Source of the DNA: Flavobacteriaceae bacterium
GTDB taxonomy: Bacteria > Bacteroidota > Bacteroidia > Flavobacteriales > Flavobacteriaceae
Direction: 5' to 3'
Length of the DNA stretch: 64,000 nucleotides
Assembly: GCA_017851655.1 (NCBI GenBank)
Contig: JAFMMH010000001.1
Span: 1-64,000 of the forward strand
In this document: positions 24,276 to 30,643 of the stretch, piece by piece
Numbering within the stretch: the first letter of the stretch is position 1
Layout: each line of letters begins with the position of its first letter
Notes under the pieces: generated by a model
Told to the model about the DNA's origin: nothing
Database searches by the model: none
Seen by the model: only the letters and a program-made list of their open reading frames with translations
Made by a program: the position numbers and the translations under genes

Positions 24276-27131
24276 ATGAGGAAAAAAACCAATACCATTC
24301 GCATTGAAGGCGCACGCGCCCACAATTTGAAGAATATCAACTTAGAAATCCCAAGAGATGAATTGGTTGTGATTACCGGTCTATCTGGTAGCGGCAAATC
24401 CTCTTTAGCCTTTGATACTCTCTATGCTGAAGGACAGCGAAGGTATATGGAAACTTTCTCTGCCTATGTAAGACAGTTTTTGGGGAATATGGAACGGCCA
24501 GATGTAGATAAAATAGACGGCTTATCACCTGTGATTGCAATAGAACAGAAAACTACTTCAAAAAGCCCTCGTTCTACAGTAGGAACTATTACAGAACTAT
24601 ACGATTATGTCCGTTTATTATTCGCTCGTGTAGGAACTGCCTACAGTTATGTAACCAATCAAAAGATGGTGAGCTATAGCGAGGAACAAATTCAAGACCT
24701 TCTTCTGGAAGACTACATTGATCAGAAAGTTATACTCCTTGCTCCCATCATCAAGTCAAGAAAAGGGCATTATCGAGAACTTTTTGATTCGCTTTCCAAA
24801 CAAGGATTTTCAAAGGTAAGAATCGATGGGCATGTTGTAGATTTAAGCCCAGGAATGAAAGTTGATCGATACAAAACCCATGATATTGAGTTGGTTGTCG
24901 ATCGCTTTACTGTCAAAAACGATAGTGAGTTCTTAAAACGACTCAATGATTCTCTTATTACTGCCTTACATTACGGCCAAGATATTCTGATGATCCTCAA
25001 TTTGACAGATAATAAAGCCCGTTATTTTAGTAAAAATTTAATGTGTCCAACTTCTGGAATCTCATACCCTGCTCCGGAACCCAACACATTTTCTTTTAAT
25101 TCACCAAAAGGTATGTGCCCCGGCTGTAAAGGTCTTGGAGTGCAGCATAAAGTGAATTTAAAAAAAATAATCCCGGACGATAGTCTCTCCATAGCGCAGG
25201 GAGGTCTTGCCCCCTTGGGAACTAAAAAAACAAGCTGGACTTACAAGCAAATTGAAACCATTGCCACCTGTTATAATTTTGATTTGACCACTCCAATCGC
25301 TAAAATTCCTGAAAAAGCGATGGAAATTATTCTCAAGGGAAGTCATGAAAAATTTGAAATTCCCTCTACTGTACTCGGAATTACACGTACCTATAAAATC
25401 GATTTTGAAGGCTTTGAACACTACATTGAATCATCATACGAAGAAGCGGCAACCGCTAGTATAAAAAGATGGGCTTCCAATTATATGGACACTTATGACT
25501 GTGATAGTTGTAAAGGCTCTCGCCTTAGAGAGGAAGCTCTTTATTTTAAAATTAACAAGGCCAATATTGCTGACTTAGTTGCAATGGATTTACACGATCT
25601 GTTCAATTGGATTTCTAAATTGGAAAAAAACTTAAATAAGAACGAAAAAAAAATTGCCACAGAGATCATAAAAGAAATACGAGTTCGTCTTGAATTCCTA
25701 TTAAATGTGGGCTTAGAATACTTACAGCTTAATCGATCTTCTAAATCCTTATCTGGTGGAGAAGCACAACGTATTCGTTTGGCAACTCAAATAGGCTCAC
25801 AGCTTGTAGGTGTTTTATACATATTGGATGAGCCAAGTATTGGTCTGCATCAACGGGATAATGATCGCTTGATTCATTCACTTACAGCACTTCGTGATCT
25901 TGGGAATTCAGTTTTGGTAGTAGAACACGACAAAGACATGATGCTCCGCGCAGATTATCTAATTGATATGGGACCTTTTGCTGGAAAAAATGGTGGAGAA
26001 ATTATTTCAAAAGGAACTCCAGAAGAAACCTTAAAACAAAATACACTCACTTCCCAATATCTCAGTGGGAAAAAGGTAATTGAGGTGCCTCAAACCCGAA
26101 GAGAAAGTAATGGACAAAGCCTTATACTCAAAGGATGTACTGGGAATAATCTCAAAAATATTGATGTTGAATTTCCTTTGGGAATCATGATTGGAGTCAC
26201 AGGAGTTTCAGGAAGTGGAAAATCAACACTAATTAATGAAACCCTATATCCTATCTTAAATGAGCATATTTTTAATGGTGTAAAAGTTCCTCTTCCCTAC
26301 AAAAAAGTATCAGGGTTAAAATACATCGATAAAGTTGTGGACATCAATCAGAGTCCTATTGGTAGAACACCCAGAAGTAATCCAGCGACTTATTGCGGTG
26401 TTTTTAGTGAAATTAGAACGCTTTTTACTTTAACACCCGAAGCACAAATACGAGGATATAAGCCTGGGAGATTCAGCTTTAATGTAGTTGGAGGCCGCTG
26501 TGAAACTTGTCAAGGAGGTGGTATGAAGGTTATTGAAATGAACTTCTTACCCGATGTTTATGTAGAATGTGAAACTTGTCAAGGAAGACGCTTTAACAGA
26601 GAAACTTTGGAAATTCGTTATAAAGGAAAATCCATTTCTGATGTTCTGAATATGTCCATTAATGAGGCTTGTGAATATTTCAGTGCACTTCCAAAAATTT
26701 ATCGAAAATTAAAGATGATTCAAGATGTTGGATTGGGTTACATCACTTTGGGTCAGCCTTCGACCACCTTATCTGGAGGAGAAGCACAACGAGTAAAACT
26801 GGCAAGTGAGCTCTCTAAAAAAGATACTGGAAGTACGTTTTATATACTAGACGAACCCACTACTGGACTTCACTTTGAAGATATTAGAGTACTTTTAGGC
26901 GTATTAAATAGATTGGTAAACAAAGGGAATACTGTTTTGATTATTGAACATAATTTGGATGTAATAAAACAAGTAGACTACATCATAGATATAGGCCCAG
27001 AAGGGGGTCGAAAAGGGGGTGAATTACTTTTTAGCGGTAAACCTGAAGATCTTATTCATCACAGCAAAAGTCATACAGCACCATTCTTGGCGAAAGAATT
27101 AGAAGTTGATATTAAGCCTATTGTAATATGA
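24276..27131 (+). CDS. uvrA: Excinuclease ABC subunit A
   Basis: 951 residues, full length. UvrA is the damage-sensing ATPase of nucleotide excision repair. It has two ABC ATPase halves: Walker A GLSGSGKSSL near residue 34 and GVSGSGKSTL near residue 648, each with an LSGGEAQR signature and a Walker B ending in LDEPSIGLHQRD or LDEPTTGLHFED. Zinc-finger cysteines are seen in CPGCKGLG, CDSCKGSR, CETCQGGG and CETCQGRR. UvrB and UvrC are not in the window, although a UvrC-like nuclease occurs at 37321. The stop overlaps the ATG of the LOG gene. Confidence 0.97.
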   Translation: MRKKTNTIRIEGARAHNLKNINLEIPRDELVVITGLSGSGKSSLAFDTLYAEGQRRYMETFSAYVRQFLGNMERPDVDKIDGLSPVIAIEQKTTSKSPRSTVGTITELYDYVRLLFARVGTAYSYVTNQKMVSYSEEQIQDLLLEDYIDQKVILLAPIIKSRKGHYRELFDSLSKQGFSKVRIDGHVVDLSPGMKVDRYKTHDIELVVDRFTVKNDSEFLKRLNDSLITALHYGQDILMILNLTDNKARYFSKNLMCPTSGISYPAPEPNTFSFNSPKGMCPGCKGLGVQHKVNLKKIIPDDSLSIAQGGLAPLGTKKTSWTYKQIETIATCYNFDLTTPIAKIPEKAMEIILKGSHEKFEIPSTVLGITRTYKIDFEGFEHYIESSYEEAATASIKRWASNYMDTYDCDSCKGSRLREEALYFKINKANIADLVAMDLHDLFNWISKLEKNLNKNEKKIATEIIKEIRVRLEFLLNVGLEYLQLNRSSKSLSGGEAQRIRLATQIGSQLVGVLYILDEPSIGLHQRDNDRLIHSLTALRDLGNSVLVVEHDKDMMLRADYLIDMGPFAGKNGGEIISKGTPEETLKQNTLTSQYLSGKKVIEVPQTRRESNGQSLILKGCTGNNLKNIDVEFPLGIMIGVTGVSGSGKSTLINETLYPILNEHIFNGVKVPLPYKKVSGLKYIDKVVDINQSPIGRTPRSNPATYCGVFSEIRTLFTLTPEAQIRGYKPGRFSFNVVGGRCETCQGGGMKVIEMNFLPDVYVECETCQGRRFNRETLEIRYKGKSISDVLNMSINEACEYFSALPKIYRKLKMIQDVGLGYITLGQPSTTLSGGEAQRVKLASELSKKDTGSTFYILDEPTTGLHFEDIRVLLGVLNRLVNKGNTVLIIEHNLDVIKQVDYIIDIGPEGGRKGGELLFSGKPEDLIHHSKSHTAPFLAKELEVDIKPIVI

Positions 27132-27811
27132 AAAAAATTAAACCTAAAAATTGGAGTGAAATCAAATCAAACGATTCATGGGCATTATTTAAAATCATGA
27201 GTGAGTTTGTGGAAGGTTATGAAACGTTAAGTGCCATTGGTCCTTCAATATCTATTTTTGGTTCCGCACGAACACATGAAGACAACCCTACTTATCAATT
27301 GACCGTGGATATCGCAGAAGCAATTGCTACATCAGGATATGGCATCATCAGCGGAGGTGGTCCTGGAATCATGGAAGCAGCAAATCGCGGTGCTCAAAAA
27401 GCAGGTGGAATATCTGTAGGGCTTAATATTGAATTGCCCTTTGAACAACAGAGCAACCCTTACATCGATCAAGATAAACTGATTAATTTTCAATATTTCT
27501 TTGTTCGAAAAGTAATGTTTGTAAAATACGCTCAAGGTTTTGTTGTGATGCCGGGAGGAGTGGGCACACTAGACGAATTATTTGAAGCCTACACACTCAT
27601 TCAAACTAATAAAGTGACTAAATTTCCTATCATCCTTGTAGGTCGAGAATACTGGAGCGGATTAGTCGACTGGATCAAAAACACACTTTTAAAAGAAAAA
27701 AATATAAGTCCTGAAGATTTAGATCTAATAGCTTTGGTGGATACCAAAGAGGAAGTTATGGAATGCTTAAACCGTTTTTACACTAAAGACAATTTCAAAC
27801 CTAACTTCTAA
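27128..27811 (+). CDS. LOG family protein (TIGR00730, nucleotide 5'-monophosphate phosphoribohydrolase-like)
   Basis: 227 residues. Rossmann-type fold with the LOG motifs SGGGPGIMEAANRGA (near residue 75) and MPGGVGTLDELFEAY (near residue 141), including the catalytic Arg/Glu pair. Members cleave nucleoside monophosphates to the free base and ribose-5-phosphate and are often mis-annotated as lysine decarboxylases. It overlaps uvrA by four bases, and its stop is directly followed by the next ATG, so uvrA, this gene and the M1-like gene form one tight unit. Whether it makes cytokinin-like bases is unknown. Confidence 0.9.
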   Translation: MKKIKPKNWSEIKSNDSWALFKIMSEFVEGYETLSAIGPSISIFGSARTHEDNPTYQLTVDIAEAIATSGYGIISGGGPGIMEAANRGAQKAGGISVGLNIELPFEQQSNPYIDQDKLINFQYFFVRKVMFVKYAQGFVVMPGGVGTLDELFEAYTLIQTNKVTKFPIILVGREYWSGLVDWIKNTLLKEKNISPEDLDLIALVDTKEEVMECLNRFYTKDNFKPNF

Positions 27812-30643
27812 ATGAGAGCAACCAGCTTTTCCCTTATAATTTTCCTTCTAATATTATGTTTAGGGAATTTTTCATGGTCTCAAAATACCTATACAATAGA
27901 TTTAGAGCTGGATATGGAGGAAGAGAGTATGATCGTCTCACAAACAATTGAATACACCAATAAGAGCAATCAATCGTTAAACTCAATTTTTCTTTACGAC
28001 TGGGCAAACTCCTATCAAGGGGCACCAGCACCTTTGGCCAATCATTTGGCAAATGAATTCAACCGAAGTTTTTATATCAGTTCAAATAGTAAGTTGGGTT
28101 ACACTCATCTAGAAAAATTAGAGGTTTCTTCAACTCCACAGAACTGGAAGCGCCTAGAAGATCAGTTAGATATTATTCAATTTGATTTATCTGAACCACT
28201 TGCTCCTGGGGAGAACGTAAAAATTAATTTAAACTATGTGGTCAAAATCCCCGACGACAAGTTTACTGGTATTGGAATTAATTCAAATAAAGGAATTTTA
28301 CTTCGTGATTTCTTTGTCAGTGTTGCACCTAGATATAATGATAAATGGTTACTGAATAGTAATCTTGGTTTTAGAGATTATAGTGCTAAACCTAATAATT
28401 ATATCATCCATTGGACATACCCATCCAACTATTCATTGGTAAGCAATCTTTATGAAGTAAGCACCGAAGAACTCAATGATCAGTTGCTTAAAAAATCTAT
28501 TTTTAAAGAAGATAATATCATTAGTCCTGAATTTGTATTTGACCTTAAAGACACCTTTAAAACGATCAAAATCAATTCAAACTTTTCAATAGTTACAGAT
28601 ATTTTACCTTCAAAAAATTCTGAATTTGATTTTCAGCAATCGATTCAAAAAATAGATGCCTTTGTCAAAACCATTCTTGATCCGATTGAGAATAAAAAAT
28701 TACTGATACTCAAAAAAGATTATTCTAAAAATCCTATCGTAGGTATAGGAGAAGCCTTATCGTTTTTGAACCCTTTCGAAGAGAACTTTAGTTTTGAAAC
28801 TAAATTTCTAAAAGCCTATTTGGGTTCTTACCTAAATGAGTTATTAATCCTCAATAAACGAAAAGATCATTGGATTACTGGAGGTATTCAAACTTATATT
28901 TCAATGAAGTTCGTAGAGGTCTATTTTCCTGACAGTAAATTTCTCGGAAACCTACGTAAATACAAAGTTCTCGGCACTACTCCGTTCAATGGTTTTAGTG
29001 CTGCGCAAATAGGATTCAATGAAAGTTATTCTTTTATTTATGAATTTAGTGAGCATGCTAACGCTCAACAGCAAGACACCTTAGGCAAAGAACGCTTAAC
29101 CAAATCCAATGAATCATACACCATCCCCTATCATGTAGGGTCTGGGCTAAGTTATTTAGACGCTTATCTTGAAGAAAATGTCCTAGATAGTGCACTGAAA
29201 GAATACAGTCAAACTAGAGGAGAAAAAGAATTAGAAAGCATCCTTAATAAAAAAACAAAAAAGAATACTGAATGGTTTTTTAAAACTTACCTAACGGACA
29301 GAAATGCCTACGATCTTTCGATTAAAAAGGTCATCAAAAATAAAGGAATGATCCGAATTACGGTATCAGAAAAAAATGCCAAACCGCTTCCTTACAAATT
29401 GGATTTGATCAAGGACGATAAAATCATCAAAGAACATTGGATCAATCATTCTGGAAAAGACACCATTTTAGATTTAAATGCTCAAGATGCAGATTTTGTT
29501 GCAATCAATTCTAATCGCTTTCTCCCCGAAAAAAACAGACTCAATAACTGGAAATATCTTCAATCATCCTCCGGTTTAAAACCATTAAAACTAACCTTTT
29601 ACGGAGATAGTGAAGACCTTTCTCGAAATCAACTCTTTTATTATCCCATCTCTGATTTTAATATTTACGATGGTTTTACTGGAGGTGTTCGCATCTATAA
29701 TACACGGGTTAAAAACCAACCCTTTGAATTGGATTTACATCCACAATATTCTATAAAGGAAAATACTTTTGTCGGTTTTTTTAGATCAAGGTATCGTTTC
29801 ATCAACCACGATAGCAAAAACTATTTGAATCAAGTTTTCTTAACAGGTAAAAGCTTTCATTACAATACGAACTTAAGATATACTTCTATACAACCTTCTT
29901 TTTCGATGTATTTCAGACCTTTTGATTTAAGGTCAAATAAGAGGCAGCTATTAAATGCAACCTGGTATAATGTTTTTAGAGATCGAGACCCTAATGTAAC
30001 GGTCAATCCCGATTACAGTATTCTTAGTTTTATTCACAGGTATGAAAATGCAGACGCCGTCACAGTATTTAATACGAGCTCAAATTTAGAAGTTTCTAAA
30101 AGCTTTGGAAAAATTCATTTTTCAAGCCAATACAGAAAACTATTCCCCAGCGGAAGACAATTTTCAATTCGCTTTTTTGCAGGAAAGTTTTTATGGCACA
30201 ACTCAACAGACACGCAGTTTTTCGACTTTAACCTAAACCGATCTCCTGATTATTTATTCAGATATGACTACTTGGGTCGTTCTGAGGATTCCGGTATTTA
30301 TAGCCAACAATTTATTCCAGCGGATGGAGGATTTAAGGCCTTTTTTGATCAATCTTCAGCAAACGATTTCATGACTTCCTTGAATGCTTCAATTGGTGTT
30401 TGGAAGTGGATTGAATTCTATGGGGATATAGGATTATTGAGGAATCGATTACGTTCTACAGTTGGTTATTTTGATTCTGGTTTCAAAATTAATTTAGTCC
30501 CTGATTATTTTGAATTATTTTTCCCACTCTATTCATCTAATGGATTTGAACCTACCCAATCCAGGTACGCCTCTAAAATCAGGTTTATCTTCACTCCTAG
30601 ACTTAAAACACTAACCAACTTGTTCAGTCGTAAATGGTTTTAG
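27812..30643 (+). CDS. Peptidase M1-like protein without zinc site, fused to a putative outer-membrane beta-barrel
   Basis: 943 residues with a signal peptide (LIIFLLILCLGNFSWSQ). Residues about 20-200 resemble the M1 aminopeptidase N-terminal beta domain. The region that should hold HExxH and the downstream Glu reads LKAYLGSYLNELL and then HWITGGIQTYIS near residue 353, where active enzymes have WLNEGFATY. None of the three zinc ligands remains. From about residue 610 the sequence alternates polar and hydrophobic strands with many aromatics and ends in KWF, as outer-membrane barrels do. I infer a catalytically dead, surface-linked M1-like protein of unknown role, in one unit with uvrA and LOG. 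Confidence 0.7.
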   Translation: MRATSFSLIIFLLILCLGNFSWSQNTYTIDLELDMEEESMIVSQTIEYTNKSNQSLNSIFLYDWANSYQGAPAPLANHLANEFNRSFYISSNSKLGYTHLEKLEVSSTPQNWKRLEDQLDIIQFDLSEPLAPGENVKINLNYVVKIPDDKFTGIGINSNKGILLRDFFVSVAPRYNDKWLLNSNLGFRDYSAKPNNYIIHWTYPSNYSLVSNLYEVSTEELNDQLLKKSIFKEDNIISPEFVFDLKDTFKTIKINSNFSIVTDILPSKNSEFDFQQSIQKIDAFVKTILDPIENKKLLILKKDYSKNPIVGIGEALSFLNPFEENFSFETKFLKAYLGSYLNELLILNKRKDHWITGGIQTYISMKFVEVYFPDSKFLGNLRKYKVLGTTPFNGFSAAQIGFNESYSFIYEFSEHANAQQQDTLGKERLTKSNESYTIPYHVGSGLSYLDAYLEENVLDSALKEYSQTRGEKELESILNKKTKKNTEWFFKTYLTDRNAYDLSIKKVIKNKGMIRITVSEKNAKPLPYKLDLIKDDKIIKEHWINHSGKDTILDLNAQDADFVAINSNRFLPEKNRLNNWKYLQSSSGLKPLKLTFYGDSEDLSRNQLFYYPISDFNIYDGFTGGVRIYNTRVKNQPFELDLHPQYSIKENTFVGFFRSRYRFINHDSKNYLNQVFLTGKSFHYNTNLRYTSIQPSFSMYFRPFDLRSNKRQLLNATWYNVFRDRDPNVTVNPDYSILSFIHRYENADAVTVFNTSSNLEVSKSFGKIHFSSQYRKLFPSGRQFSIRFFAGKFLWHNSTDTQFFDFNLNRSPDYLFRYDYLGRSEDSGIYSQQFIPADGGFKAFFDQSSANDFMTSLNASIGVWKWIEFYGDIGLLRNRLRSTVGYFDSGFKINLVPDYFELFFPLYSSNGFEPTQSRYASKIRFIFTPRLKTLTNLFSRKWF

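Follow-up and report, generated by a model that had tools for sequence, protein, structure and literature searches.

A conserved Flavobacteriaceae protein predicted to join a zinc-less M1-derived domain to an Omp85-like outer-membrane barrel

The locus and the predicted product

We analysed a 64,000-nucleotide stretch of a Flavobacteriaceae genome (hereafter the window), in which an open reading frame on the forward strand encodes a protein of 943 residues, at the place where an earlier note on this DNA had put it. The gene abuts a LOG-family gene upstream and is separated by 83 bases from a 2-oxoacid dehydrogenase gene downstream. The genes and protein segments are listed below with the basis of each assignment.

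24276..27131, + strand: uvrA (NF001503/TIGR00630; synteny in Flavobacteriaceae)
27128..27811, + strand: LOG / TIGR00730 family gene, abutting the window gene (family match; synteny)
27812..30643, + strand: whole window gene, M1-like/Omp85-like fusion, 943 aa (ORF; family search)
27812..27880, + strand: signal sequence, residues 1-23 (hydrophobic N-terminus, then WSQ, read by eye)
27887..28597, + strand: M1-type N-terminal beta-sandwich, residues 26-262 (AlphaFold model; Foldseek to M1 aminopeptidases)
28631..29290, + strand: helical M1-like, formerly catalytic, domain, residues 274-493 (AlphaFold model; Foldseek)
28727..28777, + strand: former GxMEN substrate strand region, residues 306-322 (conservation; alignment to GGGMEYP of zinc-intact relatives)
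28811..28825, + strand: HExxH position, reading KAYLG, residues 334-338 (alignment)
28871..28897, + strand: WITGGIQTY, residues 354-362, with Gly357 replacing the third-ligand Glu (sequence; alignment)
29315..29506, + strand: small beta-sandwich between the M1-like half and the barrel, residues 502-565 (AlphaFold model)
29627..30592, + strand: predicted outer-membrane barrel of 16 strands, residues 606-927 (AlphaFold barrel model; Foldseek)
30200..30367, + strand: long loop between strands 11 and 12, residues 797-852 (DYLFRYDYLGRSEDSGIYSQQ...GGFK), at the place of Omp85 loop 6
30419..30433, + strand: strand-13 motif YGDIG, residues 870-874 (profile comparison; conservation)
30593..30643, + strand: conserved C-terminal tail, residues 928-943 (...LFSRKWF), plus stop codon
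30727..33138, + strand: fused alpha/beta 2-oxoacid dehydrogenase E1 (most widely conserved neighbour)

Relatives read AQ in the alignment at the place of WSQ, and inspection of residues 1-23 by eye found no convincing lipobox. No Pfam or NCBIfam family reached its cut-off when both collections were scanned with the 943-residue protein, no PADLOC model matched it, and a PDB sequence search returned no relevant match. The full-length AlphaFold model (pLDDT 81.5, pTM 0.82) consists of a beta-sandwich, a helical domain, a small beta-sandwich and a barrel.

The gene order uvrA, LOG, window gene and E1 is the usual one in Flavobacteriaceae and dissolves outside the family; zinc-intact members of other orders have no constant neighbour. 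The linkage to uvrA and LOG, which the earlier note had regarded as a puzzle, is thus ordinary conserved synteny and looks historical.

The M1-like half and the history of its zinc site

A Foldseek search of the PDB with the full model returned only M1 aminopeptidases among its top 50 matches, including IRAP, ERAP1 and ERAP2 (best E 4e-18), in agreement with the earlier proposal of an M1-type N-terminal half. The protein itself has no match to PF01433, which scored above cut-off in all eight zinc-intact relatives scanned (50-68 bits), so its relationship to M1 enzymes is drawn from the fold and the relatives and not from a Pfam match of its own. The soluble M1 enzyme of this genome, a separate aminopeptidase of 607 residues with an intact HELAH motif (contig 73, L001:616-2439), also matches the N-terminal sandwich. 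With M1 metallopeptidases the window protein shares the N-terminal beta-sandwich, the helical gluzincin-type domain and the small beta-sandwich; it differs from them in having neither zinc ligands nor catalytic Glu, in its replaced GxMEN motif and in the fused barrel.

The state of the active site was examined in a 60-row alignment of 30 zinc-intact and 30 zinc-less sequences. Zinc-intact relatives with the same architecture occur across Bacteroidota, the distant ones at a similar length (about 930-1080 aa), and keep HEVGH...WMDEG, the catalytic tyrosine and GGGMEYP; in the alignment, 30/30 of these rows preserve the columns for HExxH, the Glu ligand, the GxMEN equivalent and Tyr, and 29/30 the Gly of GxM. 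The full zinc-site residue set (H, E, H, E and Tyr) is absent from all 30 zinc-less rows, in which the third-ligand position varies freely among D, N, G and E. In the window protein the three ligands H/H/E align to K334, G338 and G357 and the catalytic Glu to A335, and a search of the entire 943-residue chain found no HExxH. The earlier note had read WITGGIQTY in the active-site region, noted the lack of HExxH and concluded that all three ligands were gone, and each of these observations holds; of an intact zinc site elsewhere in the chain, the finding it had named as a refutation, the HExxH search gave no sign. We also considered whether Y440 could be the retained catalytic tyrosine and rejected this, the residue being one off the catalytic position and lost in several families. 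With all catalytic residues replaced, the M1 half is, as judged from the alignment, catalytically dead.

The strand that held the GxMEN motif has changed in residues as well. The GGMEYP of zinc-intact relatives aligns to the VGIGEAL stretch of the window protein, and most zinc-less members have GLNQLP where the window protein has GIGEAL. The window lineage has diverged in this motif, where it reads GIGEALSF, yet the nearest relative (L002) is identical there. Ordinary M1 enzymes use the GxMEN strand to pair with the backbone of their substrate. Within Flavobacteriaceae, residues 306-322, the former GxMEN strand, form the conservation maximum of the M1-like half, with a mean commonest-residue frequency of 0.84, compared with 0.57 in the N-terminal sandwich and 0.66 in the helical domain; by the same measure, further peaks lie in the 797-852 loop (0.80) and the C-terminal tail (0.81). 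Since conservation in the dead half peaks in this former substrate strand, a retained binding role is plausible, and the pattern plausibly fits a binding site that was kept in altered form. In the dN/dS comparison with the nearest relative, synonymous sites were saturated except in one domain.

The fusion of the M1-like half with the Omp85-like barrel is clearly conserved across nearly all Flavobacteriaceae. Strong matches (E below 1e-97) were found in 116/121 genomes of the family and matches of any strength in 118/121, nearly all of them full length, single copy and 27-40% identical to the window protein; a 31-member alignment contains about 80 invariant columns. The window lineage is itself diverged, at about 34-40% identity to every relative but one. 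No copy was found in G023, a complete 2.6 Mb genome of the same family, so the gene is not strictly essential. A profile search detected members across the order, the class and the phylum, with any match in 119/148 genomes of the order, where the weak matches are mostly ordinary M1 enzymes; the family f16 genomes listed, streamlined to 0.3-0.6 Mb, contained no member.

To place the loss, we built a maximum-likelihood tree without the active-site columns, leaving out the very divergent zinc-less row L103. The zinc-less rows form a single clade (support 100/99) nested among zinc-intact rows, with the zinc-intact L096 of family f4 as its sister. Given this nesting, a single loss of the peptidase in Flavobacteriales, after which the protein was retained, is probable. 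L103, on a very long branch, fell just outside the clade in quick trees, and a single clade including it was not rejected (p-AU 0.42). The E1 gene adjoins both zinc-intact L096 and zinc-less L097, as it does in Flavobacteriaceae, and this common neighbour supports orthology. Starting from an active ancestor, catalysis thus probably disappeared in one event, or in a few at most.

The barrel and its relation to Omp85 proteins

A barrel-only AlphaFold model, built from 48 relatives, was predicted with high scores (pLDDT 90.3, pTM 0.86) and has 16 strands by DSSP; the earlier note had anticipated an M1 fold with a barrel of 14-16 strands, and the predictions agree with it. The top 29 PDB matches of this barrel in Foldseek are all Omp85 proteins (TamA, Sam50, BamA including that of F. 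johnsoniae, FhaC and CdiB), with a best E of 3.8e-7 and moderate TM-scores of 0.34-0.53, and are followed by LptD. Sixteen-stranded porins, which are common in the PDB, were absent from the top 50. The barrel had been described earlier as ending in KWF: the barrel stands, but the terminal RKWF sits beyond the last strand, in a short helix, and does not form the closing strand. The C-terminus itself, LF-[ST]-RKWF, is strongly conserved within that helix past the last predicted strand, and the RKWF tail may be a partner-binding element.

Two motif positions connect the barrel with Omp85/TpsB proteins (BamA, TamA/TamL, FhaC, CdiB, Sam50), with which it shares 16 strands, an Arg in the 11-12 loop and D-x-G in strand 13. 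Loop 6 of Omp85 proteins, which joins strands 11 and 12, bears an RGF/Y motif, and the Arg of this motif extends into the barrel. The corresponding loop here spans about 56 residues and holds the most conserved residues, among them Arg823, which is kept in 46/60 aligned rows and in 27/30 of the zinc-less ones. The loop 6 motif (V/L/I)RG(F/Y), also described in PMC12611786, was not found in this loop, which has GRSE/GRN instead. In strand 13 the window protein has YGDIG, where distant relatives have FADAG and TamL has F-DAGN-W. Further differences from Omp85/TpsB are the lack of a PF01103 match and of POTRA domains, GRSE in place of (V/L)RG(F/Y), and the extra C-terminal tail helix; in the AlphaFold model and by Foldseek, the M1-like half occupies the N-terminal place of POTRA.

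At the sequence level, a direct profile comparison between the barrel family and the BamA and TamL barrels of Flavobacteriaceae was not significant. Comparison of C-terminal slices with BamA and TamL likewise gave no Omp85 sequence link; the TamL slice was misplaced, which leaves the full-length tests unaffected. An indirect link runs through distant zinc-intact M1-barrel relatives (L087, L088 and L091), which match the barrel family with probability 96.7 and E 4e-10 over 305 columns, and whose profile in turn hits TamL (E 3e-4) with strand 13 in register (FADAG against F-DAGN-W). Control profiles of FadL, DUF5686, BamA and reversed sequences gave E 0.1 or worse against this bridge. Collectively, these results suggest that the barrel is Omp85-like and probably homologous to Omp85; having neither the RGF/Y motif nor POTRA, it is not filed here as a canonical Omp85 protein. 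On the predicted models, we regard a dead M1-derived domain carried on an Omp85-like barrel as a well-founded description of the architecture. Neither the Omp85-like character of the barrel nor the existence of zinc-intact versions was within reach of the earlier note.

Long zinc-intact M1 proteins with C-terminal barrels were also observed in distant Bacteroidota (L084, L085, L086, L087, L088, L089, L090 and L091). Two of them, L088 and L091, show the classic Omp85 signature of the FADAG-W type, which the window family has lost.

Possible function and competing readings

The best studied fusion of an enzyme to an Omp85 barrel is PlpD, whose domain stays periplasmic, an earlier claim of export having been overturned (PMC11116518). 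The window protein shares its plan, an enzyme-derived N-terminal domain on an Omp85 barrel; PlpD has a patatin domain and POTRA, whereas the window protein has an M1 fold, no POTRA and, as it appears, no catalysis. The Omp85 census of Heinz and Lithgow (2014) lists patatin, WD40, 'Metallo' (PF00149), lipoprotein and no-N-terminus types (PMC4104836). Its 'Metallo', WD40 and noNterm subfamilies resemble the window protein in having a non-POTRA N-terminal domain or none; 'Metallo' there denotes PF00149 and not M1, and the word peptidase is absent from that paper. The purified BAM complex of F. johnsoniae comprises BamA, D, G, H, M and P, and by their descriptions none of these subunits has an M1-barrel architecture (PMC12611786). 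Because the Flavobacterium BAM includes an outer-membrane subunit, identity with BamG or BamM was considered; it was rejected, since BamG is FadL-like with 14 strands and BamM is a lipoprotein. Our search of the open-access literature, preprints excluded, found no paper on an M1-Omp85 fusion.

The account we tentatively favour overall is an Omp85-like barrel that bears, instead of POTRA, a catalytically dead M1-derived domain retained as a binding module, catalysis having been lost, probably once, in the ancestor of most Flavobacteriales. The M1-like half is probably periplasmic, because an even number of strands places both ends of the barrel in the periplasm; PlpD, with its periplasmic domain, offers an analogy. 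The former substrate groove might bind unfolded or extended polypeptide, perhaps by edge-strand pairing, the polypeptide being either a partner subunit or a client (an outer-membrane protein or a surface lipoprotein). By way of the conserved 11-12 loop, the domain could then pass its client to the barrel, or could regulate the barrel itself. The zinc-intact counterparts of this domain would act on peptides at the inner face of the outer membrane, trimming or degrading them.

A more specific role, in which the module binds clients or partners during biogenesis or quality control of the outer membrane and surface lipoproteins, is possible and a little less certain. Bolder still, and in our judgement on the unlikely side, is the suggestion that these proteins constitute a new Bacteroidota-wide Omp85-like branch, M1-Omp85, in which a peptidase takes the place of POTRA domains and the Flavobacteriales pseudoenzyme is the client receptor of a further Omp85-type machine, additional to BAM and TamL, for outer-membrane or surface-lipoprotein biogenesis. 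The outer membranes of Bacteroidota show unusual complexity, and it was not until 2025 that their strongly remodelled BAM machine was described (PMC12611786); a nearly universal Omp85-like protein that carries a peptidase-derived domain and has no annotation is a candidate for a missing component. An M1-derived domain widens the range of domains found on Omp85-like barrels, and the protein clearly exemplifies a pseudoenzyme that became fixed early and has persisted across an order. The coexistence of zinc-intact and zinc-dead relatives offers a natural experiment on the role of the domain.

Among the competing readings, the one with the best, if still low, chance is a scaffold for lipid homeostasis of the PlpD kind, in which membrane perturbation by the barrel is combined with binding of lipid, or of a partner that handles lipid, by the domain, and protein clients play no part. 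Loss of PlpD alters phospholipids (PMC11116518), and in three other Flavobacteriales families (two zinc-intact, one zinc-less) the gene directly follows, on the same strand, a PadR regulator and a PspC/ToastRack membrane protein, a pair linked to envelope stress:

L176:5466-7575, same strand as the gene: PadR regulator and PspC/ToastRack membrane protein, upstream of the M1-Omp85-like gene
L178:6064-8078, same strand as the gene: PadR regulator and PspC/ToastRack membrane protein, upstream of the M1-Omp85-like gene
L183:4849-6960, same strand as the gene: PadR regulator and PspC/ToastRack membrane protein, upstream of the M1-Omp85-like gene

This neighbourhood hints at a link to envelope stress; in the Flavobacteriaceae genomes checked, PspC matches lie elsewhere than at the window-type gene. 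However, an M1-derived groove suits peptides and not lipids, and within the dead domain conservation is highest in the strand that once paired with peptide.

Somewhat less likely is the reading that follows the earlier note's suggestion of a peptide-binding or transport-coupled surface function: a receptor that would deliver peptides to the barrel or through it. Its peptide-binding part remains plausible, given an M1-like groove joined to a barrel and a groove strand that is still conserved, though in residues that differ from the enzyme's. The surface part is not supported: the default topology points to the periplasm, neither a plug domain nor a SusD-like neighbour was seen, and the long loop occupies the place of Omp85 loop 6.

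Improbable, too, is a type V-like arrangement, with the M1-like domain as a passenger that its own barrel sends out to the cell surface. A soluble N-terminal domain ahead of a C-terminal barrel is the layout for which export was formerly proposed in PlpD, but that claim has been overturned, a folded multi-domain M1 unit makes a poor export substrate, and no autotransporter-type linker helix is predicted ahead of strand 1.

An active metalloenzyme with a displaced metal site seems very improbable: many Flavobacteriaceae members have a Tyr one residue from the catalytic position, but HExxH occurs in 0/30 zinc-less rows, the third-ligand position is unconstrained, and the same genome keeps its soluble, intact M1 enzyme. 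Least probable of all is slow decay, with a functionless gene drifting to loss, as the divergence of the window lineage might suggest; against it, nearly every genome has a full-length intact frame, invariant columns run throughout the protein, and the tail and loop motifs are conserved.
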